A stretch of 26,571 nucleotides of DNA from a virus, in the IMG/VR virus record IMGVR_UViG_3300023176_007010, positions 1 to 26,571 of that record, one strand, 5' to 3'. Below are positions 15,066 through 26,571 of the stretch, piece by piece. Both the position numbers and the translations under genes were made by a program. A model generated the notes under the pieces. That model did no database searches, was not told the DNA's origin, and was given only the letters and a program-made list of their open reading frames with translations. The first letter of the stretch is position 1; each line of letters opens with the position of its first letter.

Positions 15066-15677
15066 ATGTCATTTATTTTAGAATCTATGTTTAAAAATAA
15101 AACAGTAGCATTAGTAGGGAATGCCCAATCTTTGCTGTCTCAACACAAGGGCACAGACATAGATAGTCATGACATTGTTTGTAGAATTAATTTAGGGCCA
15201 AACCTGTGTGGTACAGGAAGCCATGGTAACAAAACAGATGTGTTGTTCTTCAGTATGCCAGAATGGGCCACAGCAAATGATAAATTACCTAACGAAGTAA
15301 TAAAGATACACACAGGTCACTGTTACAATCCCTGTTTTATGACGAAGGAAGAAAGACAAAACTTTACTCCATCCATAAAAACAGATTACTTTTTTCCAAA
15401 AGAAAAATTTGATTTTTTGAAAAAACAAATAGGTTATACCAGACACAAAACATGGCCTTCTACCGGAGCCACTGCATTCTATATGTGTGTAGAAGCCAAC
15501 CCATCGGTACTTAATCTCTATGGATTTGACTTCAAAAAATCCTTTACCTTTTATCATGATGATAAAACCGGTGACCCAAAAACATCTCGCGATAAGAAGC
15601 GTAAGCACAACTGGGATCTCGAGAAAGAGTGGACAATGAAATTAATCAACCAAAAGACAAATTTAAGATTGGTGTAA
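15066..15677 (+). CDS. GT29 (sialyltransferase-like) glycosyltransferase
   Basis: A 203-residue protein. KTVALVGNAQSLLSQHKG (12-29) and DIDSHDIVCRINLGPN (31-46) match the sialylmotif L region of GT29 ('VAVVGNSG.L......ID.HD.V.R.N'). WPSTGATAFYMCVEANPSVL, then NLYGFDF (about 133-160), matches the motif S region. GT29 enzymes transfer sialic-acid-type sugars from CMP donors, and bacterial and phage members are shorter than the eukaryotic ones, as here. No signal peptide is visible; it should act in the cytoplasm on an intermediate or on a virion protein. It is followed after 6 nt by a second glycosyltransferase. Confidence 0.78.
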   Translation: MSFILESMFKNKTVALVGNAQSLLSQHKGTDIDSHDIVCRINLGPNLCGTGSHGNKTDVLFFSMPEWATANDKLPNEVIKIHTGHCYNPCFMTKEERQNFTPSIKTDYFFPKEKFDFLKKQIGYTRHKTWPSTGATAFYMCVEANPSVLNLYGFDFKKSFTFYHDDKTGDPKTSRDKKRKHNWDLEKEWTMKLINQKTNLRLV

Positions 15678-17685: not shown

Positions 17686-18624
17686 CTAGAATGTGAATTT
17701 GATTCCAGCCGCCATGCTTGTTGTGTCTGTACCTGTAGTCTTGTCAGTTACTTCGTAACCGGCGTACATGCTGAAGTTCTCACCGATCTTCTTGTCCGCA
17801 CCATAAGTCCAGTACTTGTTACCATCCTTGATCTCACCATAACCTGCTGAGAAAGTGGTTGCACCTATCGTGTGTGAACCCACGATCTCATTCGCTTTAG
17901 TGTCTAGATTGGTAGACTCTACAGTTTTGATTGTGTGGTTGTAACCGATTGTGGTTTCGTCTGTGAGGTCGAACGAAGCACCCAATCCTTTGTACTCGAT
18001 GGAGTTGACCTTGTCATCCGTGTATGCCACACCGATGTTCAAATTATCAGTCAATTCCATTGAAGCCGCAGTCTCATACACATCGATGCCTGATTTACCA
18101 GTCGAACCGTCGACCTTCATCAAGTTATCGATCTGTACTGCACCTATGTTGTTCGAGTACACGATAGTGTGTGAGTCTCTGCTGAACAACTTCTGTGCGG
18201 CGCTTCCGCCGAATTCTGGGAACACATCTGTCTTAGATGTAACAGCACCCTTGAACACTGAGTCCTGTCTTCCTGCCGATAGCACACCCGCGTTGCCCAT
18301 GTCCACACCAGCAAATGCCAGTTTTGAATCAAAAGGCGAACTGCCTGAGTCATCCGCGTCGATTTCAACTTCTAACTTGGCGAAGCCGTTGATTCCCTCT
18401 GCCAGGTTGCTACTAAAGTCAACACCGATGGAAGAACCGTTGTTCTCCGCTTTCGCTGTTGCTGTGCCGTTAGCGTCTTCGTTGTTTGAAAGCATGTAGT
18501 TCAATGAACCGTACACCTTCATCTCGGTCGCTTCAGCCGGAGTCGGTTTGAACACCGACCATAGTACTACAAGTGCCACTATTATGGCCGCACCTATAGC
18601 CATCTTCTTCTTAGTCATTTTCAT
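17686..18624 (-). CDS. Gram-negative outer-membrane porin carried by the phage
   Basis: A 312-residue protein from ATG 18624. AGGAG at 18636-18640 decides this start over the longer open frame to 18903. It has a signal peptide: basic MKMTKKK, hydrophobic AIGAAIIVALVVLWSV, then PTPAEA with likely cleavage after A32. The mature part begins with MKVYGSLNYMLSN, the usual first porin strand. It continues as alternating strands with Gly-Asp/Asn turns (GINGFAKLEVEIDAD, MELTDNLNIGVAYTDD, FSMYAGYEVTDK) and ends in GIKFTF, with the C-terminal Phe needed for BAM insertion. FAGVDMGNAGVLSAGRQDSV matches the loop 3 approach region of general porins. It should form a beta-barrel channel in the host outer membrane. 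A late-promoter-like box precedes it and a terminator follows. A role in receptor masking or uptake is inference. Confidence 0.88.
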   Translation of the reverse strand: MKMTKKKMAIGAAIIVALVVLWSVFKPTPAEATEMKVYGSLNYMLSNNEDANGTATAKAENNGSSIGVDFSSNLAEGINGFAKLEVEIDADDSGSSPFDSKLAFAGVDMGNAGVLSAGRQDSVFKGAVTSKTDVFPEFGGSAAQKLFSRDSHTIVYSNNIGAVQIDNLMKVDGSTGKSGIDVYETAASMELTDNLNIGVAYTDDKVNSIEYKGLGASFDLTDETTIGYNHTIKTVESTNLDTKANEIVGSHTIGATTFSAGYGEIKDGNKYWTYGADKKIGENFSMYAGYEVTDKTTGTDTTSMAAGIKFTF

Positions 18625-18794: not shown

Positions 18795-18962
18795 ATGGGC
18801 ATACACTACGACTACAAGAGCACACGCGGTGCCAAGAAGATGCAGAAGCAACAGGAACGTGAACAGCGCAGGCGCGATCGCAAGGCCAAGCAGGTGACCC
18901 CACAGAAGACGGACGAATCCAAACCCTTGACCATGGACATGATCACGGACCCCAACAAATGA
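18795..18962 (+). CDS. Small basic protein coupled to a radical-SAM gene
   Basis: A 55-residue protein (MGIHYDYKSTRGAKK at the start, ending MDMITDPNK). GGAG at 18784-18787 lies at a good distance before ATG 18795, and the stop TGA (18960-18962) overlaps the ATG (18959) of the radical-SAM gene in the classic ATGA coupling. The middle is a Lys/Arg/Gln/Glu-rich helix (about 14-33). It is too small to classify by family. Because a short peptide gene directly before a radical-SAM/SPASM-type enzyme is the layout of RiPP precursors, that possibility deserves mention. The lack of Cys and the strongly basic composition are also consistent with an unrelated helper protein. Confidence 0.65.
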   Translation: MGIHYDYKSTRGAKKMQKQQEREQRRRDRKAKQVTPQKTDESKPLTMDMITDPNK

Positions 18963-19960
18963 TCAACCAACGCTTGTTCGATCACTACGGCATAGACACC
19001 CACAAGGATCTCCGGGTCTCCAAGACCTGCGGCAGACCTTTCGACACCATACTGGTGGACAAGATGGGCAGTTGCTACGCCTGTGAGTGCCAGGCCTGGT
19101 TGCCCCAGAGCGTGGGCAATCTACTGAAGGATCCCATGGAGCAGATACTCCAGTCCGCCATGCGGGGTCACCTACAGCAGAGCGTGAGTGACGGCACGTA
19201 TCGATACTGTAACAACAAACTCTGTACCTACATCTCCAAGAACAAGTTCCCCCATGGGGATCTGACCGAGGGGCTCAAACAACTCAGGTTGGCCATCGAC
19301 GACAGTTGCAACCTGTCGTGCCCCAGTTGCCGGAAGGAGAAGATATTCCTCTACAAGGGTGGCACTTTCAGGCTGAGGATGAAAATAATGGAACAGGTGT
19401 TGGCATTCATGCACCGCAGGTCGGATCCCTTGTTGGTGCACATAGGTTCTGACGGTGATCCATTCGCCAGCATACTGTACAGGACACTGATGAAGAAAGC
19501 ACCAGACAAGGACTGCTTCTCTTACAGCCTGCAGACCAACGGACTGCTGTTCAAACAGATGTACCCTCGTGTGCGGCACGTGATAGACAAGGCCAATCAC
19601 ATCAACGTCAGCATCGACGGTGCCAGCAGGCACACCTACGAGACACTGAGGAGGGGTGGTGACTGGGACAAGATACAGCACAACCTCCAGTTCATTGGTG
19701 AGAAGAAATCATCGGGCTACAGGTTCGAGTTGCACATGGTTGTGCAGAAGTCCAACTGGCACGAGATGCCCGCCATGTTGGAGTTGGCACGCAGGGTGGG
19801 AGCAGATGAGGTCAAGTTCACCAAACTCGCGGACTGGGGCACATTTGACAGTTTCGAATCACAACAGCCTCCCACGGACAGCACCGAGTTCATGGACATG
19901 CTGGAACGTTGTGAGAGTGATCCCATCGGGCACACATGGTTAGATCCTGACTCGATCTAG
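18959..19960 (+). CDS. Radical-SAM protein with N-terminal cysteine cluster (twitch/SPASM-like)
   Basis: A 333-residue protein. DSCNLSCPSC (115-124) gives the CxxxCxxC motif with C117, C121 and C124, which bind the [4Fe-4S] cluster and SAM. The N-terminal 100 residues contain C24, C39, C42, C44, C84 and C89, consistent with a second cluster in a twitch-like domain placed before the radical-SAM barrel. VHIGSDGDPFAS stands where GGEP normally is, and HINVSIDGASRHTYETLRRG is a typical barrel strand/loop of this family. The reaction and substrate are unknown. It is coupled to the 55-residue gene. G+C is visibly high: one 60-nt row (19021-19080) has 34 G/C, far above the neighbourhood, suggesting separate acquisition. 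Confidence 0.85.
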   Translation: MINQRLFDHYGIDTHKDLRVSKTCGRPFDTILVDKMGSCYACECQAWLPQSVGNLLKDPMEQILQSAMRGHLQQSVSDGTYRYCNNKLCTYISKNKFPHGDLTEGLKQLRLAIDDSCNLSCPSCRKEKIFLYKGGTFRLRMKIMEQVLAFMHRRSDPLLVHIGSDGDPFASILYRTLMKKAPDKDCFSYSLQTNGLLFKQMYPRVRHVIDKANHINVSIDGASRHTYETLRRGGDWDKIQHNLQFIGEKKSSGYRFELHMVVQKSNWHEMPAMLELARRVGADEVKFTKLADWGTFDSFESQQPPTDSTEFMDMLERCESDPIGHTWLDPDSI

Positions 19961-21051
19961 TTGTTGTATATCTTTAAAATCGCTTCCAGGTTCTCTTTGT
20001 GTATGCTCTTGGGCGCACAGGTCCCGCACCTGCATCTATCCTGGGCACAGATCAGCGTTGGCATCCTGTCCTCCCGCTTCATCTTTTCTATGTAGTCGTC
20101 CATCGTGTCGATGGTTGCTATGGCACCAGTGGTGCCGTCTAGTCTCACCCTACAGTCCTTGTTGGTGGAGTATTCCCCCGATATGTTGTTTCCAGACAGG
20201 AAGAACTGGTTAGCCGCACAGTGCCACCCCCTGAAACCGAGATCCCTGGGTATCATGGACACATAGTTCTTGATGTCCCTGTTCATGCACATGGACCTGC
20301 CTCCACAACAGCCTCTGGTTTGATCAGCAATACGAGTCGTCTTGTCGATCTTCTTGATGTCCTCTTGGTCGAAGTTTTTTAGGTATGGCATCAATTGCTC
20401 TAGTTGTTTTTCGCTGTATAGTCCCTCTATGCCATCGAGGATCTTGGGTCTGGCATTCAAATTGTTTGTTTCACAGTACTTGAGGAAACCCATGCAGTCC
20501 TGCCAGTGGTCCTTGTGAGGATACATGCAGACTATAATGTCGTGTTCGATCTTTTGCTGGACCGCGTGTTCAATATTGTTCTTGAAAAAGGTTTTGAGTT
20601 TGTCTGGACCTTGGCTGTGATAACTGAAAGTGATGCCCTCTATGTGTTCACACACGGTCTTCCATCTTTTGGCAGTGGCCGTGGCGTTGGTGGTCATCCT
20701 ACGTCTCAGTCTCCACCTATCAGAATACTTTTCATATTCCTTGGTGGAACCTATCAGTATGTCTTCGATGTCAGGGTGGTACAATGCTTCTCCCCCATAA
20801 ACGTTTAGGATCACATCCTTGAAGGGATTTTTTTTGATCTCCATAACGGTGTCGGTGTACGAATACATCTGTTTCAACATTGTCATGCAACGTTCAACGG
20901 GTGGATGTGGTTTGGAGTTGTCATGACCCAAGGTACCTTCAGGACAATAGGTGCAGTCGTAATTGCATTTCAGTGTGAGCAACCAATCGATTAGGAAACC
21001 CATCTTGTTCTTTGGATGATAGGCGGCTTCTACTGTGTGGATTGTGGACAT
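19957..21051 (-). CDS. Radical-SAM protein with C-terminal SPASM-like cysteines
   Basis: A 364-residue protein from ATG 21051 (MSTIHTVEAAY); codons further upstream would run through the promoter-like box and the divergent gene. LTLKCNYDCTYCPEG (25-39) supplies C29, C33 and C36. LNVYGGEALYHPD contains the GGE motif. The C-terminal half is cysteine-rich (RGCCGGRSMCMN, RGWHCAANQ, DCRVRLDG and ICAQDRCRCGTC), fitting auxiliary [4Fe-4S] clusters of SPASM type. Such enzymes modify peptides, sugars or cofactors by radical chemistry. It overlaps the 3' end of the preceding convergent radical-SAM gene by 4 nt and is divergent from the SDR gene. Confidence 0.87.
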   Translation of the reverse strand: MSTIHTVEAAYHPKNKMGFLIDWLLTLKCNYDCTYCPEGTLGHDNSKPHPPVERCMTMLKQMYSYTDTVMEIKKNPFKDVILNVYGGEALYHPDIEDILIGSTKEYEKYSDRWRLRRRMTTNATATAKRWKTVCEHIEGITFSYHSQGPDKLKTFFKNNIEHAVQQKIEHDIIVCMYPHKDHWQDCMGFLKYCETNNLNARPKILDGIEGLYSEKQLEQLMPYLKNFDQEDIKKIDKTTRIADQTRGCCGGRSMCMNRDIKNYVSMIPRDLGFRGWHCAANQFFLSGNNISGEYSTNKDCRVRLDGTTGAIATIDTMDDYIEKMKREDRMPTLICAQDRCRCGTCAPKSIHKENLEAILKIYNN

Positions 21052-21058
21052 TTGGAAA

Positions 21059-21066
21059 TATTTAAG
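21059..21066 (-). promoter_or_regulatory. Late-promoter-like box CTTAAATA, minus strand
   Basis: Read on the minus strand, CTTAAATA is followed by TTTCCAA and ATG 21051. Together with the plus-strand box at 21081-21088 (TGTAAATA-TTTCCT-ATG) it forms a divergent pair whose two arms share TAAATATTTCC followed within two bases by ATG. Confidence 0.45.
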
Positions 21067-21080
21067 CAGTCTATGTGCCG

Positions 21081-21088
21081 TGTAAATA
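21081..21088 (+). promoter_or_regulatory. Late-promoter-like box TGTAAATA against a start codon
   Basis: Six nucleotides (TTTCCT) separate this box from ATG 21095. There is no ribosome binding site. It would drive the SDR/radical-SAM/sulfotransferase operon. Confidence 0.45.
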
Positions 21089-21094
21089 TTTCCT

Positions 21095-21604
21095 ATGCAG
21101 ATTGCAATCACTGGACACAAGAGAGGAATTGGGCAGGCGTTCGCCCAACAGTTAGAAAAACGTGGGCACCAGATAGTGGGCATATCCAGGAGTGATGGTG
21201 AGAACATCCGACGGGTGCTTCACACGGCATCAATCATAGAGCCGTGTGATATGTTCATCAACAACGCAATAAGCATGTACGCCCAAACTGAACTGTTGTT
21301 CGAAGTATGGCATAGATGGAAAGACAAGAAAGATGTGCATCACATATGGAACATATCAACACGTGTGTGCGAGTGGGACGAGGACAAACAGATCAACGGC
21401 TTGACCATGAGGGAGTCAATGGAGTACCGTAATCAGAAGATGGCATTGGAACTGGCACATGTACAACTTCACGCACAGACCAGTAATATCAAGATGGAAC
21501 TTATCAGGCCAGGCGGTGTGAACACCCAGTCATTCAGTGCACCAGGAAGCATGTCGGCAGAACAATACATCAAGGGAGTGTTGGAGCAACAGGACATAGT
21601 ATAA
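21095..21604 (+). CDS. Short-chain dehydrogenase/reductase (compact SDR)
   Basis: A 169-residue Rossmann-fold protein. The cofactor loop is AITGHKRGIGQAF (3-15; TGxxxGIG), MFINNAISMY carries the NNA motif, WNISTRVC the Ser strand, and YRNQKMALELA the catalytic YxxxK. VELIRPGG-type sequence appears as MELIRPGGVNTQ. Classical SDRs have ~250 residues; this is shorter between the cofactor loop and NNA, but keeps the key residues. It should reduce or oxidise a carbonyl/hydroxyl with NAD(P), probably on a sugar or small metabolite. Its stop TAA shares a base with the next gene's ATG (21604). Confidence 0.85.
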   Translation: MQIAITGHKRGIGQAFAQQLEKRGHQIVGISRSDGENIRRVLHTASIIEPCDMFINNAISMYAQTELLFEVWHRWKDKKDVHHIWNISTRVCEWDEDKQINGLTMRESMEYRNQKMALELAHVQLHAQTSNIKMELIRPGGVNTQSFSAPGSMSAEQYIKGVLEQQDIV

Positions 21605-22761
21605 TGGACGCCAAGAAATTTTTGACCAACAAGAGCATATGCACACTTCCGTGGACCGGATTTGAACTCGAGCCCAACGGTGATGTAAAGAACTGTATAA
21701 TATCCAGGGAAAAACTTGGTAACATCAACGGGTCTAGCATACAAGATATACTACACGGAGACAAGAACAAGCATCTCAAATCACAAATGTTAACAGACAG
21801 GAAGCCGTCTAACTGCGAGGGTTGTCACCTACAAGAGAAGTCAAGAAACGATTTGGGTAGCATCAGCAGTCGACTTTACTATCACAAGGAAATAGGGCCA
21901 AAGATAGATCTTTCCATGCTAGACGATGTTAACAAATTCAGTCTAAAACATGTAGACCTACGTTGGACCAACTCGTGCAACCAGGCCTGTGTGTATTGTA
22001 ATCCAGAATGGAGCAGTAAGTGGTCGCAGGAACTAGGACAACCTGTGAGGAGCAACAAAGATGATCGAGAGGAAGTAAAAAATTTTGTGTTTGAAAATAT
22101 CGAACAACTAGAGAACGTTTACCTGGCAGGCGGCGAACCTATGCTCATGAAAGAGAACAAAGAGTTCCTAGATCTGTTAAGCAAGAAGAATCCTGACATT
22201 CACCTGCGTGTGAATACAAACCTAAGCACTACTAAGACAGGGGTATTCGAATTATTGTGTTCATTCAAGAATGTACACTGGACAGTTAGTGTTGACACAA
22301 TAGAAGAAGAGTATGAATACATAAGGTATCATGGATCGTGGAATGACTTCCTAGCAAACCTAGACACAATAAACAAATTGCCTCATAAGATAAGTTTCAA
22401 CATGTTACATTTCATACTGAATTACACTAGCATACATGATTGCATTGATCTGTTGAAACAAAAAGGATTTCATGATAACAGTTTCATAGCGGGACCTTTG
22501 TACAGACCAAACTGGTGGAACTTGTTGAATTTGCCGGATAGAATGATTCAATCCGCCACCGACCTATTGAAGAAGAGGATCAACGACGGTACCTCCGGTT
22601 ATCTTAAAAACAGTTATGAGAACTGTTTGACATATTTCACTTCGACGCCATGGGAAAAAGATATTATAACATTCAATAAACAGATAGGAGACATGGACAA
22701 AAGAAGAGGCACGAACAGTGCAAAGGTTTTTAAAAAACTTTTCGAGGACATGAATGCTTAA
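21604..22761 (+). CDS. Twitch-domain radical-SAM protein
   Basis: A 385-residue protein. The N-terminal twitch-like segment has C13 in SICTLPWTGFELEPNGDV, C31, and C71/C74 in CEGC. The radical-SAM motif is SCNQACVYCNPEWSSKW (124-140) with C125, C129 and C132. LAGGEPMLMKEN holds GGEP, and VHWTVSVDTIEEEYEYIRYH is a barrel strand. The CNPxxSxxW pattern is one I associate with radical-SAM proteins seen in marine phages and bacteria, of unknown reaction. It sits in a coupled operon: 1-nt overlap with the SDR gene and 8-nt overlap with the sulfotransferase-like gene. Confidence 0.88.
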   Translation: MDAKKFLTNKSICTLPWTGFELEPNGDVKNCIISREKLGNINGSSIQDILHGDKNKHLKSQMLTDRKPSNCEGCHLQEKSRNDLGSISSRLYYHKEIGPKIDLSMLDDVNKFSLKHVDLRWTNSCNQACVYCNPEWSSKWSQELGQPVRSNKDDREEVKNFVFENIEQLENVYLAGGEPMLMKENKEFLDLLSKKNPDIHLRVNTNLSTTKTGVFELLCSFKNVHWTVSVDTIEEEYEYIRYHGSWNDFLANLDTINKLPHKISFNMLHFILNYTSIHDCIDLLKQKGFHDNSFIAGPLYRPNWWNLLNLPDRMIQSATDLLKKRINDGTSGYLKNSYENCLTYFTSTPWEKDIITFNKQIGDMDKRRGTNSAKVFKKLFEDMNA

Positions 22762-23281
22762 ACACTGGAAAAAATTGCTTTCTTCTGAATGTAAGGTTTT
22801 TGAAATAAAGGGCACTGCTGTACTTCCAATTTTCAAAGTGGGGTCAACAAGCCTGCGTCACTCCGCTGACCGTGTATACGTCAACGACGAAATATCTAAA
22901 TTTGACCTTGTGCATGTTTTGATTCGACGTCCGGAAGAAAGATTTGTGTCTGGACTAAACGAGTACTGCCAACAGAACAATCTCGACATCCACAAAACAT
23001 TGGATGACGTTAGGTCGGGACTTATATCGGACAGACACTTTGCACCCCAGTACATGTGGCTCTTACACCTATACAAGTTTTACAAAGGAATGATCAGAAT
23101 ACGACCTTTCGATGCGTTAAATGAATACACGGAACTACATAAAAAGAAAAGCACCATGGAAAAAGTTCAAGTCACTGCTTTGGAACAATACATTTTGATT
23201 GATAGGATGTTAACCAAACACTACGACACCGATATTGCACTGGAAGACATCATAAGGAGATATAAAAATGTTTTGTCCTAG
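22754..23281 (+). CDS. Sulfotransferase-like protein (Sulfotransfer_2 type)
   Basis: A 175-residue protein. FKVGSTSLRHSAD (27-39) corresponds to the 5'-phosphosulfate-binding loop ('..K.GSTSL...') and VLIRRPEERFVSGLNEY (about 56-72) to the 3'-phosphate motif ('.RDP.ERF.S.Y'). DRHFAPQYMWL further on matches the 'H..PQ' element of carbohydrate sulfotransferases. These enzymes move sulfate from PAPS to a sugar hydroxyl. The protein is shorter than usual (~250-300 residues), but the motifs are in order. It lies between, and overlaps, two radical-SAM genes (8 and 14 nt), so the three proteins are made together. Activity is plausible, not demonstrated. Confidence 0.75.
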   Translation: MLKHWKKLLSSECKVFEIKGTAVLPIFKVGSTSLRHSADRVYVNDEISKFDLVHVLIRRPEERFVSGLNEYCQQNNLDIHKTLDDVRSGLISDRHFAPQYMWLLHLYKFYKGMIRIRPFDALNEYTELHKKKSTMEKVQVTALEQYILIDRMLTKHYDTDIALEDIIRRYKNVLS

Positions 23282-24254
23282 ACTTGAACACTTTGTCAGA
23301 TTAAATCAAAACGGAACTATCGGCAGGTGTGGGCACATGATGGATGCAGTGAATTTTGAATCCTACACCAAATTAGAAAACAGCACTTGGTTGAAAGATA
23401 TCAAACAACAGATGTCGTTGGATAAATGGCCAAAGGAATGTGTGAGGTGCCAGCAGTCTGAAAGCACAAAAGGTGAGAGTGTGAGAACGAACAGTATCAC
23501 AAGACATAAACTACTCAAACCGATAAAAAAGGATTATCTGGTTGTGGGTGGTGTTCTGGACAACGTCTGTAACAGTGCCTGCCAGTCATGCAATCCAAAT
23601 CTCAGTACAAAGATAGGCAGTCTGGAATCAACGGACTACAAGCGGATAGACAATTACGTGAGGTTCTGGGAACTACCACAAGACAGGATTGTCGAGATAG
23701 ATGTAAATGGAGGAGAACCAACTGCTAGTAGGAATTACAAAAAGATCCTGAAGCACTTGCCCTCCAACACAAAAATAGTGAGAATGAATACCAATGGTTC
23801 AAGGACAATAAAAGAATTAGAAGACATAATGGCAAATGGTATAAAGGTAATTGTGACCATGAGCCTAGACGGCGTTGGGTCAGTACATGATTACACGAGA
23901 TGGCCTATTAAATGGAAAGATTACACGAAGACAGTAGAGCACTATAAGAAATTAAAAGACAGGAATAAACTCATGCACCTTGACATGTGGACAACAGTGA
24001 GTTGTCTAAACATCAACATACTACCAGAAATAATTGCTTACACTAAGAGCGAAGGAATACCGCACGATTGGGCGTTCCTCGAACAGCCTGGTGTATTAAA
24101 TGTGCGTTATACAAATAAGTTCACTTTGGGTGCCAAGAGAATGTTTCCTAACCAAATTGCAATAGACAAGGACAACACTCAGCAACTGAACGCATTTATC
24201 GACCGACAAGACTCATTGCGTGGCATTGACATTAAAGATTATCTTAACTGTTAA
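23268..24254 (+). CDS. Twitch-domain radical-SAM protein
   Basis: A 328-residue protein. The N-terminal cysteines are C3, C21, C58 and C61 (ECVRCQQ), the same twitch layout as the gene at 21604. The radical-SAM motif is NVCNSACQSCNPNLS (99-113) with C101, C105 and C108. IDVNGGEPTASRNYKK carries GGEP and VIVTMSLDGVGSVHDYTRWP the barrel strand. It is probably a diverged relative of the 21604 protein with a different substrate. It overlaps the sulfotransferase-like gene by 14 nt and ends in a palindrome before the convergent SGNH gene. Confidence 0.88.
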   Translation: MFCPRLEHFVRLNQNGTIGRCGHMMDAVNFESYTKLENSTWLKDIKQQMSLDKWPKECVRCQQSESTKGESVRTNSITRHKLLKPIKKDYLVVGGVLDNVCNSACQSCNPNLSTKIGSLESTDYKRIDNYVRFWELPQDRIVEIDVNGGEPTASRNYKKILKHLPSNTKIVRMNTNGSRTIKELEDIMANGIKVIVTMSLDGVGSVHDYTRWPIKWKDYTKTVEHYKKLKDRNKLMHLDMWTTVSCLNINILPEIIAYTKSEGIPHDWAFLEQPGVLNVRYTNKFTLGAKRMFPNQIAIDKDNTQQLNAFIDRQDSLRGIDIKDYLNC

Positions 24255-24266: not shown

Positions 24267-24950
24267 TTATCTTAATTTGTGTTTCATTAGGTCAACGAAT
24301 ATCTGCGCGAACCGTTTGTGATTTTCAATACCATAATGTATGCCATCCCTAGCACGGCTTGGTTTCTGTCTTTTCCTTTGTCCGAACTTATCCCAGTATG
24401 GCCAACAATTTTTGAGTGTGTGATTTTCAAGCACCAATGGATTGTTACCTTTTGATCGGAACTCGATATACACGTCTGCGAAACAGTGGAGGGTCTTGCA
24501 CTGGTTCTTCTCTGCGTACTTCTCCAGGAAGAAAACACTCTTAAGGAAGTTGTTGAGATCGGTCTTGTGATTTTCAAAACGCAGTTTCTCATCAGTGCCG
24601 TGTAGGTTAGAGGCGTAGTCTTCCAATCTCTCCCTACGACTCATCTCTGGCCACATGACTATAATAATGTTGGGGTTAATCACCTTCTCGCACGAATACA
24701 ATATACGCACCACCGTCTCGGGACTGGCGCCGGGCTGTCCCAGGTTCCAGTATCTCAACTTGTCTGTGTTGTGTTGGCTGACATGATGTGCCCAGGTCTC
24801 GTTGGGTTCCAGTCCCACACCCCAGGTATGGCTACAACCCAGTATCACTACGTTCTTCTTGCCATCGGGCATCGGATCCCACGAGGGGCAACGGAAAGGG
24901 TACTGCTTGAAAGTTTTCAAGTCGTTGTCAGAATAGAATCCGTACTTCAC
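24267..24950 (-). CDS. SGNH/GDSL-type hydrolase
   Basis: A 227-residue protein from GTG 24950, overlapping the stop of the upstream gene (ACGTGA) with AAAGG nearby. Block I is VVILGCSHTWGVGLEPNETW (34-53) with Ser40 as the nucleophile, block II is WNLGQPGASPETVV (68-81) with Gly, block III is IIIVMWPEMSRRE, and block V is SRARDGIHYGIENHKRFA with Asp and His in D-x-x-H. SGNH enzymes remove acetyl or other acyl groups, often from polysaccharides. No signal peptide is seen. It is a better SGNH match than the protein at 8262. Expressed from the tRNA side of the region, it converges on the radical-SAM operon. Confidence 0.8.
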   Translation of the reverse strand: MKYGFYSDNDLKTFKQYPFRCPSWDPMPDGKKNVVILGCSHTWGVGLEPNETWAHHVSQHNTDKLRYWNLGQPGASPETVVRILYSCEKVINPNIIIVMWPEMSRRERLEDYASNLHGTDEKLRFENHKTDLNNFLKSVFFLEKYAEKNQCKTLHCFADVYIEFRSKGNNPLVLENHTLKNCWPYWDKFGQRKRQKPSRARDGIHYGIENHKRFAQIFVDLMKHKLR

Positions 24951-25269: not shown

Positions 25270-25346
25270 TGGTGGACCTGACAGGATTCGAACCTGTGGC
25301 CTTGGGTTCCGCAAACCCACGCTCTATCCAACTGAGCTACAGGTCC
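25270..25346 (-). tRNA. tRNA-Arg (anticodon GCG)
   Basis: A complete cloverleaf with an encoded CCA. The acceptor GGACCTG (25346-25340) pairs with CAGGTCC (25280-25274). The D stem is GCTC/GAGC, the anticodon stem TGGGT/ACCCA with loop TTGCGGA, and the T arm ACAGG-TTCGAAT-CCTGT. Anticodon GCG reads CGC and CGU. Most bacteria use ACG (inosine) for these codons. Confidence 0.93.
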
Positions 25347-25349
25347 ATT

Positions 25350-25426
25350 TGGCGTGCCCGGCAGGACTCGAACCTGCGACCCCAAGTTTAGGAAACTCGT
25401 ATTCTATCCATCTGAACTACGGGCAC
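25350..25426 (-). tRNA. tRNA-Arg (anticodon CCU)
   Basis: The acceptor GTGCCCG/CGGGCAC is followed by discriminator G and an encoded CCA. The anticodon stem CGAGT/ACTTG has one G-U pair, with loop TTCCTAA, anticodon CCU for AGG. The T arm GCAGG-TTCGAGT-CCTGC is intact. Three bases separate it from tRNA-Arg(GCG), so both should come from one precursor. AGG is frequent in the window's genes. Confidence 0.93.
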
Positions 25427-25434
25427 ATATTTGT

Positions 25435-25509
25435 TGGCGGTCCCTAGGGGAGTCGAACCCCTCTTTCGAGGATGAAAACCACGTGTCCTAACCGATAGAC
25501 GAAGGGACC
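25435..25509 (-). tRNA. tRNA-Glu (anticodon UUC)
   Basis: The acceptor GGTCCCT/AGGGACC, D stem GTC/GAC, T arm AGGGG-TTCGACT-CCCCT and encoded CCA are all intact. The loop is TTTTCAT, anticodon UUC for GAA/GAG. The anticodon stem CGTGG/CCTCG has a central U-U mismatch. The upstream protein gene runs 22 nt into this tRNA and stops at TAG (25488-25490) inside it. Confidence 0.9.
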
Positions 25510-26339
25510 GGATCGAAAGTCAGTTTGAGCAAATCTTTGTTGACGTAATTGTCGGGCTCGTCACTAAACTTATCGACTTTTCCAATAACAAATTCTAGAG
25601 GCATGTCTCGTACTGCCTTACCATATTTGTTGCACCAACTCACAAAACTTTCTGACTGGTACACCTGCTTTAAATTTTTGTTGACGTCTATGAAGAAGCC
25701 GCCGAACGATCCCAGCCTGCCAGTACAGTCCACGGCGGTCGGATCGTCATTTTCTTGGAACGATTGAAGCACACACTTGCCTAATATCGACCTGTCAAGC
25801 CTTACGGTGTAGTCGTAATTGTAATCAAAAAATTTATAGTTTTCGTCGTGCAATTTTTTTAGATCTATCCAGCAGTCCATGGGTATAGGATGTGCGGCGA
25901 CATGAAACCAAAGGTCGCTCGCGTAGCCTGTGTTCCTATCATTGGTGAATTCTTCCAACTCATGGACACAATAATTCACTCTGGAAACGAGATCAAACAG
26001 TTCGGAATCTTTTTCCACAGAAACTGCACTGTCGGTATAATAACGGTGTAGTTGGTTGAGAGTGTCTTGGTCGTGTGAAAATGTGTCAGGCAGTGTGATG
26101 CCCATGGGACGTACATGATCAAGTTTCTTTGCTGTGTCGAGTAATACGTCATAAACGTGTTTTATTTTCCTTGATTCGTCGTCGCTGAAGTTGTTGTCAT
26201 GCAAGGCCGATGTTTCGGAATTCAAACTGTATTGATATTTTCCAGATATCTTTTTCACATGGTCAGCCCATGGTTTCATACATTCGTGCAGTTGCACAAC
26301 GATGTGATGACCGTCAGAGAAGTCCAATCTAAATTTCAT
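25488..26339 (-). CDS. Hypothetical protein encoded between two tRNA genes
   Basis: A 283-residue acidic protein (MKFRLDFSDGHHIVVQLHEC at the start). It has several His- and Asp-rich segments (KLDHVRPMGITLP, LHRYYTD, NYCVHELEEF, LWFHVAAHPIPMDCWIDLKK) and a Gly-rich LGSFGGFFIDVNKNL. The YCVHELEEF and FHVAAHP segments could be metal ligands, but I do not recognise a family. Its GGAG (26347-26350) abuts the CCA of tRNA-Ala, and its last seven codons and stop lie inside tRNA-Glu. It must therefore be translated from the unprocessed tRNA precursor, or from a promoter in the tRNA-Ala region. Confidence 0.75.
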   Translation of the reverse strand: MKFRLDFSDGHHIVVQLHECMKPWADHVKKISGKYQYSLNSETSALHDNNFSDDESRKIKHVYDVLLDTAKKLDHVRPMGITLPDTFSHDQDTLNQLHRYYTDSAVSVEKDSELFDLVSRVNYCVHELEEFTNDRNTGYASDLWFHVAAHPIPMDCWIDLKKLHDENYKFFDYNYDYTVRLDRSILGKCVLQSFQENDDPTAVDCTGRLGSFGGFFIDVNKNLKQVYQSESFVSWCNKYGKAVRDMPLEFVIGKVDKFSDEPDNYVNKDLLKLTFDPVPSSIG

Positions 26340-26346
26340 TCATTAT

Positions 26347-26350
26347 CTCC
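26347..26350 (-). promoter_or_regulatory. Ribosome binding site flush with the tRNA-Ala 3' end
   Basis: GGAG directly follows the encoded CCA of tRNA-Ala, seven nucleotides before ATG 26339. Maturation of the tRNA at CCA would leave this site as the very 5' end of the mRNA. Confidence 0.6.
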
Positions 26351-26424
26351 TGGTGGAGGATAGGAGAGTCGAACTCCTGACTCATCCATGCCATGGATGC
26401 GTGATCCCACTTCACCAATCCCCC
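26351..26424 (-). tRNA. tRNA-Ala (anticodon GGC)
   Basis: The acceptor GGGGGAT/ATCCTCC contains a G3-U70 wobble, the main identity element of alanine tRNA. The D stem is GTG/CAC, the anticodon stem CATCC/GGATG with loop ATGGCAT (anticodon GGC, reading GCC/GCU), and the T arm AGGAG-TTCGACT-CTCCT, with discriminator A and an encoded CCA. Position 32 is A rather than a pyrimidine. Confidence 0.92.
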
Positions 26425-26495
26425 AAACACACCGTCACATGCAAGACCATTGAGTTATTTGGTGATAATGGTAATATTGGCATGTTTGGTGTACG

Positions 26496-26571
26496 TGGTG
26501 CCGCTTCACGGATTCGAACCGCGGACCTACTGATTACAAATCAGTTGCTCTACCAACTGAGCTAAAGCGGC
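26496..26571 (-). tRNA. tRNA-Thr (anticodon UGU)
   Basis: Complete at the window edge: acceptor GCCGCTT (26571-26565) pairs with AAGCGGC, D stem GCTC/GAGC, anticodon stem ACTGA/TCAGT with loop TTTGTAA (UGU, for ACA), T arm CGCGG-TTCGAAT-CCGTG, discriminator A and encoded CCA. The 71-nt spacer to tRNA-Ala (26425-26495) shows no cloverleaf or coding frame. Confidence 0.93.

Follow-up and report, generated by a model that had tools for sequence, protein, structure and literature searches.

What do several radical S-adenosylmethionine (radical SAM) enzymes, a reductase and a sulfotransferase-like protein do together in a phage, and do they belong together at all? The question is raised by a linear 26.6-kb virus record, IMG/VR IMGVR_UViG_3300023176_007010, all 26,571 nt of which are called the window here. 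Four of its genes form a unit at 21095-24254 in the order SDR - rSAM-A - ST - rSAM-B:

21095..21604, plus strand: SDR, a 169-aa reductase of the classical NAD(P)-dependent type (short-chain dehydrogenase/reductase); cassette core
21604..22761, plus strand: rSAM-A, an N-terminal twitch/SPASM-like region followed by radical SAM, NF033640 family; frequent, optional cassette member
22754..23281, plus strand: ST, a short sulfotransferase-fold protein; cassette core
23268..24254, plus strand: rSAM-B, an N-terminal four-cysteine region (C3/C21/C58/C61) followed by radical SAM; cassette core

The unit is a horizontally moving cassette of large-genome phages, with ST, rSAM-B and SDR as its core and with rSAM-A, a protein of 2-oxoglutarate (2OG) oxygenase fold (ox7) and, in the window, a further radical SAM protein (rSAM-M) as extras. 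We give roughly an even chance to the view that this cassette tailors a sugar, combining radical redox chemistry or deoxygenation with sulfation.

A recurrent cassette with two insertion sites

The open reading frames (ORFs) at 18795-18962, 18959-19960, 21095-21604, 21604-22761, 22754-23281 and 23268-24254 on the plus strand and at 19957-21207 on the minus strand are all present. The original prediction of end-to-start overlaps along 21095-24254 is borne out by the coordinates, with 1 nt shared by SDR and rSAM-A, 8 nt by rSAM-A and ST, and 14 nt by ST and rSAM-B. A profile search with rSAM-B returned at least 485 viral contigs; the neighbourhood counts refer to the best 80, some of which may be near-identical. 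ST lies directly upstream of rSAM-B in 79 of these 80 loci and SDR within four genes of it in 75, while rSAM-A is found near it in 60 and ox7 in 42. In a scan seeded with ST, the next gene is rSAM-B in 71 of 78 loci, and five of the seven exceptions are contig ends. Nearly all junctions between cassette genes overlap (98.7% for ST followed by rSAM-B). Failure of the genes to travel together elsewhere had been named in advance as grounds for giving up the prediction, which survives this comparison. The association exceeds chance because tens of independent contigs, at 40-75% identity, show it as well. The arrangement of the window is repeated in three loci (L002, L003 and L004) and, without rSAM-A, in L022; a second group of loci has the permuted order ST - rSAM-B - SDR - rSAM-A. 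Searches with rSAM-A and rSAM-M gave 20 viral loci and one further locus, respectively. Pattern queries from single sequences were too strict, yielding zero relatives for ST and one for rSAM-M in the viral contigs; an alignment query solved this for ST.

The cassette occupies one of two sites. The first is bounded by two of the genes that surround the unit in the window:

18795..18962, plus strand: 55-aa basic protein; backbone, with an ATGA stop-start overlap with rSAM-C
18959..19960, plus strand: rSAM-C, backbone radical SAM protein bordering the insertion site on its left; outside the cassette
19957..21051, minus strand: rSAM-M, divergent radical SAM protein with C-terminal cysteine clusters; in the insert here, sporadic elsewhere
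24267..24950, minus strand: SGNH/GDSL-like protein, backbone, at the right edge of the site; assigned by motif only (conserved GCSHT...DGxHxG motifs)

Site I lies between rSAM-C and the 24267 gene. It is empty in ten loci (L129, L138, L148, L149, L150, L152, L157, L158, L159 and L161), in which the two convergent genes are separated by -17 to +3 nt. In filled loci a cassette-bearing insert of 2.0-6.0 kb stands at exactly the same position (4,306 nt in the window). As empty sites keep rSAM-C and the 24267 gene, we assign rSAM-C, the 55-aa gene and an upstream porin gene to the backbone, and rSAM-M together with SDR-rSAM-A-ST-rSAM-B to the insert. The single cassette that had been predicted thus holds for SDR, rSAM-A, ST and rSAM-B; the 18959 radical SAM gene and the small-peptide gene beside it persist where the block is absent. 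Most of the remaining loci have the cassette at site II, between the genes for a gp32-like single-stranded DNA-binding protein (SSB) and RecA/UvsX. UvsX at this site shares 66-68% identity with its counterparts in the jumbo phages CBB, GAP32, XbC2 and Atu_ph07, and isolates preserve an empty site II: in CBB and Atu_ph07 the gene preceding the RecA-like gene adjoins it (58 and 73 nt), and in CBB this gene is annotated as an ssDNA-binding protein. The cassette is therefore a discrete block that moves horizontally, with natural empty versions at both sites. Its pieces also reassort: between L035 and L103, rSAM-B is 98% identical, ST 46% and SDR 68%, pointing to recombination inside the cassette.

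The DnaB-like helicase of the window is 50% identical to that of PA5oct, a 287-kb Pseudomonas phage, and 46% to that of Atu_ph07, a 490-kb Agrobacterium phage, so the window is most likely a fragment of a jumbo phage. Among 50,697 phage records (INPHARED isolates), no homologue of rSAM-B (two queries), ST, rSAM-C, rSAM-M or the 55-aa protein was found. Two strict patterns for rSAM-B, which rarer or divergent cellular homologues could escape, matched a single species genome out of 84,980, a metagenome-assembled genome (MAG) of Porticoccaceae, in which rSAM-B lies on a 10-kb contig. Its gene order equals that of the phage site, and the contig is therefore most likely phage DNA.

Cassette proteins and their conserved residues

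The cassette enzymes look active, as their catalytic residues are essentially invariant. The cassette genes are under purifying selection, with dN/dS ratios of 0.09-0.20 for pairs with unsaturated dS. Degenerate key residues in homologues were the other outcome that the original prediction had set against itself; instead, cysteines, the Y-K pair of SDR and the main motif residues of ST are 90-100% conserved. In SDR, GHKRGIG (GxxxGIG), NNA, S88 and Y111xxxK115 are invariant or nearly so among 83 homologues (G7, G11, G13, Y111 and K115 in 83/83; S88 in 77/83). It thereby has the GxxxGxG cofactor loop and the Ser/YxxxK residues of a classical SDR, at 169 aa compared to typically ~250. Pfam scores are 26.0 bits for adh_short (cut-off 26.6) and 21.8 bits for Epimerase (cut-off 20.9).

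All four radical SAM proteins of the region carry CxxxCxxC, as had been predicted (CNLSCPSC, CNYDCTYC, CNQACVYC and CNSACQSC). Against the Pfam Radical_SAM model (PF04055; cut-off 29.5) rSAM-A (66.4 bits) and rSAM-B (37.4 bits) score above the cut-off, while rSAM-C (28.9 bits) and rSAM-M (24.0 bits) narrowly miss it. The extra cysteine clusters are conserved across homologues as well: in rSAM-A, CxxxCxxC and C13/C31/C71/C74 are kept in 100% of 70 homologues, and in rSAM-B all seven cysteines, C3/C21/C58/C61 included, in 82-84 of 84, with the CxxxCxxC motif at 100%. rSAM-A is a member of the NF033640 family (266.6 bits; curated cut-off 170). rSAM-B scores 140.1 bits, below that cut-off, and falls outside the family; it is homologous to rSAM-A along its full length (hhalign, 99.1%) and forms a virus-borne sister family of NF033640. 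A viperin-like identity was considered and rejected, since rSAM-A and rSAM-M reach 37.0 and 32.2 bits against a cut-off of 180 for NF038283.

The AlphaFold2 model of ST (pLDDT 84, pTM 0.81) has as its best viral structure match in BFVD an annotated phage 'Sulfotransferase family' protein (E 3e-11, TM 0.81). K/R28, G/A30, R58, R63, G67, H95 and Q99 are conserved in 81/81 homologues and S66 in 72/81; S31 varies. The protein contains both motifs expected for binding 3'-phosphoadenosine 5'-phosphosulfate (PAPS), the 5'-phosphosulfate-binding (5'-PSB) loop (K-x-G-S/T-S/T) and the 3'-phosphate motif (R..P..R..SG). The optional ox7 is a small 2OG-oxygenase-like protein with invariant HxD, H and R. 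Its AlphaFold2 model (pLDDT 90) matches 2OG dioxygenases, with 64 matches at E<0.001, among them, at the level of fold only, the aminoglycoside dioxygenase KanJ. With hhalign, the ox7 family showed no significant match to an Asp/Asn hydroxylase of phage origin.

Proposed sugar tailoring and its alternatives

We infer a sugar substrate, a reaction order, sulfation and a biological role as follows. rSAM-B, which is of the twitch type, and perhaps also rSAM-A would abstract a hydrogen from a sugar carbon, leading to oxidation or dehydration; SDR would reduce the resulting ketone to give a deoxygenated or epimerised sugar; and ST would then sulfate a hydroxyl with PAPS from the host. The product most likely changes the surface glycan of the host during infection and less likely a glycan of the virion. 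Candidate targets are LPS or capsule of the host, a glycan of the virion and a soluble sugar; the placement of the cassette near replication genes rather than structural ones slightly favours a host-directed role.

A sugar is proposed because relatives of rSAM-A in bacteria and phages adjoin sugar genes, because the twitch domain is weakly BtrN-like, and because GT29-like, FkbM and other methyltransferase genes are among the neighbours in the window. NF033640 is rare in bacteria, with matches in 4 of 398 Pseudomonadota genomes (the MAG included) and in 2 of the 385 genomes from the class to which another genome, G112, belongs. Leaving the presumed phage contig aside, it scores above the cut-off in three cellular genomes, and glycan genes adjoin it in each. 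The first (G077) has a tandem array of four NF033640 genes, one of them fused in frame to Wzt, with genes for an ABC-2 permease, Wzt, WbsX and TylF next to it; in the second (G744) the gene stands beside a family 2 glycosyltransferase (GT2), a nucleoside diphosphate (NDP)-sugar epimerase and a methyltransferase; and in G112 a GT2 is nearby. In phages with rSAM-A and without the cassette (L005-L009), the genes after rSAM-A are a conserved, unassigned 390-aa gene and one for an epimerase of the GalE/GDP-mannose-dehydratase type (Epimerase E 1e-49). The N-terminal domain of rSAM-A weakly resembles the BtrN twitch domain (E 1e-3). The pairing of a radical enzyme with SDR is proposed from these glycan contexts, from the AprD4/AprD3 precedent discussed below and from rates of divergence: rSAM-B and SDR show the best correlation among cassette genes (Spearman 0.62 overall and 0.74 in site II, compared to 0.38 for rSAM-B and UvsX as reference), and ST evolves fastest. 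The divergence of ST, ~1.46 times that of rSAM-B, is as expected for a step in which the acceptor varies. The original suggestion of a sugar or surface modification is thus favoured by the context of relatives, though unproven; its 'sulfated' is an assignment from fold and motif.

Among other observations on the relatives, a bacterial 854-aa ORF (L117, 8579-11143, minus strand), which lies among four tandem copies, joins Wzt, the ATPase of O-antigen export, and an N-twitch radical SAM protein in a single reading frame. In one of the cassette-free phages (L008, 5989-12668) rSAM-A, the 390-aa gene and the GalE-type epimerase are accompanied by GTP cyclohydrolase I, Asp/Asn hydroxylase and inosine monophosphate dehydrogenase (IMPDH)-like genes. 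Searches of Pfam, PDB and PHROG gave no support for the 390-aa gene as a GT-B glycosyltransferase, and that reading is not used. Of 12 large contigs, three contain partial and ambiguous matches to adenosine 5'-phosphosulfate (APS) kinase, and three an A-type iron-sulfur carrier that has no tie to the cassette.

Several observations weigh against sugar tailoring. No glycosyltransferase or NDP-sugar gene lies inside the cassette. The glycan context in bacteria comes from few genomes, and in another (G304) a sub-cut-off NF033640 match lies outside any glycan cluster. The correlation between rSAM-B and SDR is modest, and SDR most often overlaps rSAM-A instead. As for ST, PAPS sulfotransferases (NDST1, 3-OST) rank first among PDB folds, yet with E>=0.25, and no PDB match reaches E<0.001; Pfam gives no confident match, at best Sulfotransfer_2 with E 0.037, in 3 of 13 members. 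Because of the non-significant PDB matches and the weak Pfam result we name the 22754 protein sulfotransferase-like; fold and motifs suggest sulfation. Finally, twitch/SPASM radical SAM enzymes modify peptides too, and the nearest PDB sequence to rSAM-B is a peptide maturase, SkfB (E 6e-7).

These last two points lead to the alternative of protein or peptide modification, in which rSAM-A and rSAM-B would cross-link or oxidise amino acids in a protein of the host or the virion, SDR would reduce them and ST would sulfate a tyrosine or hydroxyl. The twitch/SPASM architecture is common in such enzymes, and, besides SkfB, sub-threshold NCBIfam matches include many maturases of ribosomally synthesised and post-translationally modified peptides (RiPPs). 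We nevertheless regard it as unlikely, as the overlapping cassette genes leave no room for a small precursor gene, the 55-aa protein goes with rSAM-C outside the cassette, and relatives of rSAM-A in cells and phages accompany sugar genes. A RiPP-type cluster in particular was rejected: no small ORF lies between cassette genes, and the 55-aa gene belongs to the rSAM-C unit. That protein, the small peptide that the original prediction had counted as part of the cassette, also looks unlike a RiPP precursor, with its MGIHYDYKxTR start, basic middle and lack of cysteine. Hypermodification of phage DNA or nucleotides against host nucleases, by cargo beside SSB, UvsX and replication genes, is improbable. 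Site II between SSB and UvsX and the frequent partner of 2OG-oxygenase fold speak for it, and radical SAM and 2OG enzymes participate in known phage base hypermodification. Yet relatives show site II as no more than the space between core genes, site I lies elsewhere, and relatives have sugar genes as neighbours. Among the genes of the window annotated here, we noticed neither a base-hydroxymethylase nor any other enzyme of base modification, and we know of no sulfated DNA bases.

Improbable too, if by a hair less so, is a product that is not a polymer, whether a small molecule that diffuses away or an altered cofactor or metabolite of the host, made by an auxiliary metabolic pathway. SDR, radical SAM, sulfotransferase and 2OG oxygenase make up a typical tailoring set, ox7 matches KanJ in fold, and a secondary-metabolite cluster has been proposed in a jumbo cyanophage (PMC7824862); the cassette, however, has no enzyme that builds a scaffold, and the relatives sit in a glycan context. 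That the genes cluster by chance in a hypervariable, gene-rich region we consider extremely improbable. T4-like phages rich in radical SAM genes (PMC5332604, PMC2853527) and hypervariable regions of large phages that gather such genes (PMC7029224) are known, but the neighbourhood counts already refute chance, as do the recurrent order, the overlaps and the clean empty sites. Within sugar tailoring, a more specific proposal would be a pathway carried by phages, with no counterpart found in the cellular genomes searched, in which radical SAM chemistry deoxygenates or epimerises a sugar and sulfation is coupled to this step, so that a sulfated unusual sugar re-coats the infected cell (or the virion), the unit moving between two fixed sites of jumbo-like phages and reassorting ST. 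This fuller version is tentative, and we think it more probably wrong than right.

Neighbouring genes and known systems

The ORF of rSAM-M can be read from 21207. Its homologue in L022 (72% identity) begins to align at window 21051 (MSTIHTV...), and the start is therefore most likely 21051, which removes the overlap with SDR and leaves the two genes divergent. In L142, rSAM-M is the sole gene between rSAM-C and the 24267 gene; it is found with ST in L146 and accompanies the cassette in L032, L046, L085 and L103. In rSAM-C, nine cysteines and the motif are kept in 100% of 27 homologues. The 55-aa gene is found in 42 viral loci, and rSAM-C within the fetched stretch of 37 of them. The 55-aa protein has an invariant or almost invariant MGIHYDYKxTR N-terminus and a conserved C-terminus, and may act as a partner of rSAM-C or be its substrate. 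Of the 42 loci, 28 have an annotated porin; in the window this phage-borne outer-membrane porin lies at 17686-18624 (minus strand), has a start resembling a signal peptide and, in its longest ORF, matches Porin_1 with E 5.5e-9. The 24267 product has no match in Pfam or PHROG. Two sialyltransferase-like genes lie at 87-842 and 15066-15677 (phrog_4603 E 3e-4; Glyco_transf_29 E 1e-13), and the right end, 25270-26571, holds five tRNA genes (two Arg, Glu, Ala and Thr).

rSAM-A shares its layout, N-terminal twitch followed by radical SAM, with the N_Twi_rSAM family NF033640, which includes the KVP40-type phage radical SAM protein (phrog_14086). KVP40-like Vibrio phages have a protein 22% identical to rSAM-A and no match for ST or rSAM-B. 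BtrN, a radical SAM enzyme, dehydrogenates an aminocyclitol derived from a sugar; besides the match being weak, its twitch region is C-terminal, whereas that of rSAM-A is N-terminal. In apramycin C3'-deoxygenation, the radical SAM diol dehydratase AprD4 works with the NADPH reductase AprD3 (PMC5461906). The cassette likewise pairs radical SAM with an NAD(P)H reductase, as rSAM-B and rSAM-A adjoin SDR, and rSAM-B and SDR co-vary. The cassette enzymes differ in their N-terminal twitch, and the proposed likeness is one of working only, with BtrN plus a reductase as a second possible model; the AprD4/AprD3 families are not among the 25 best NCBIfam matches listed.

Phages rich in radical SAM genes have been described: the T4-like phage TARA_ERS488813_N000010 has 12 (PMC5332604), the Campylobacter phages CP220/CPt10 have 11-12 (PMC2853527), and pelagimyophages carry radical SAM gene cassettes in a host-recognition region (PMC7029224). 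The present contigs share with them many radical SAM genes, of which one 145-kb viral contig (L088; G758) has 13 matches, and exchangeable blocks bearing them; the SDR-rSAM-ST-rSAM unit and the two sites are not described in the passages of these three papers that were consulted. A full-text search for radical SAM, sulfotransferase and phage, with most subscription journals and preprints outside its coverage, gave no paper on such a unit, in agreement with the original view that no phage pathway of this composition had been described. Jumbo-cyanophage clusters of sugar- and amino-acid-modifying genes and 2OG oxygenases, for which a change of surface polysaccharide has been proposed, contain glycosyltransferases, carbamoyl transferases and a halogenase, and neither 'radical' nor 'sulfotransferase' occurs in the text (PMC7824862).

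Large phages rich in radical SAM genes and phage polysaccharide clusters are thus already known, and what is new is the combination of enzymes in a phage modification cassette. In place of the vague notion of many radical SAM genes in big phages there is now a defined and conserved unit of four genes that is mobile and for which empty sites serve as natural controls. It is present in hundreds of uncultured virus fragments, many from phages with giant genomes, and its function can be tested by expressing three or four genes. The cassette may reveal a chemistry, radical SAM combined with sulfotransferase, that phages use against competitors or hosts.

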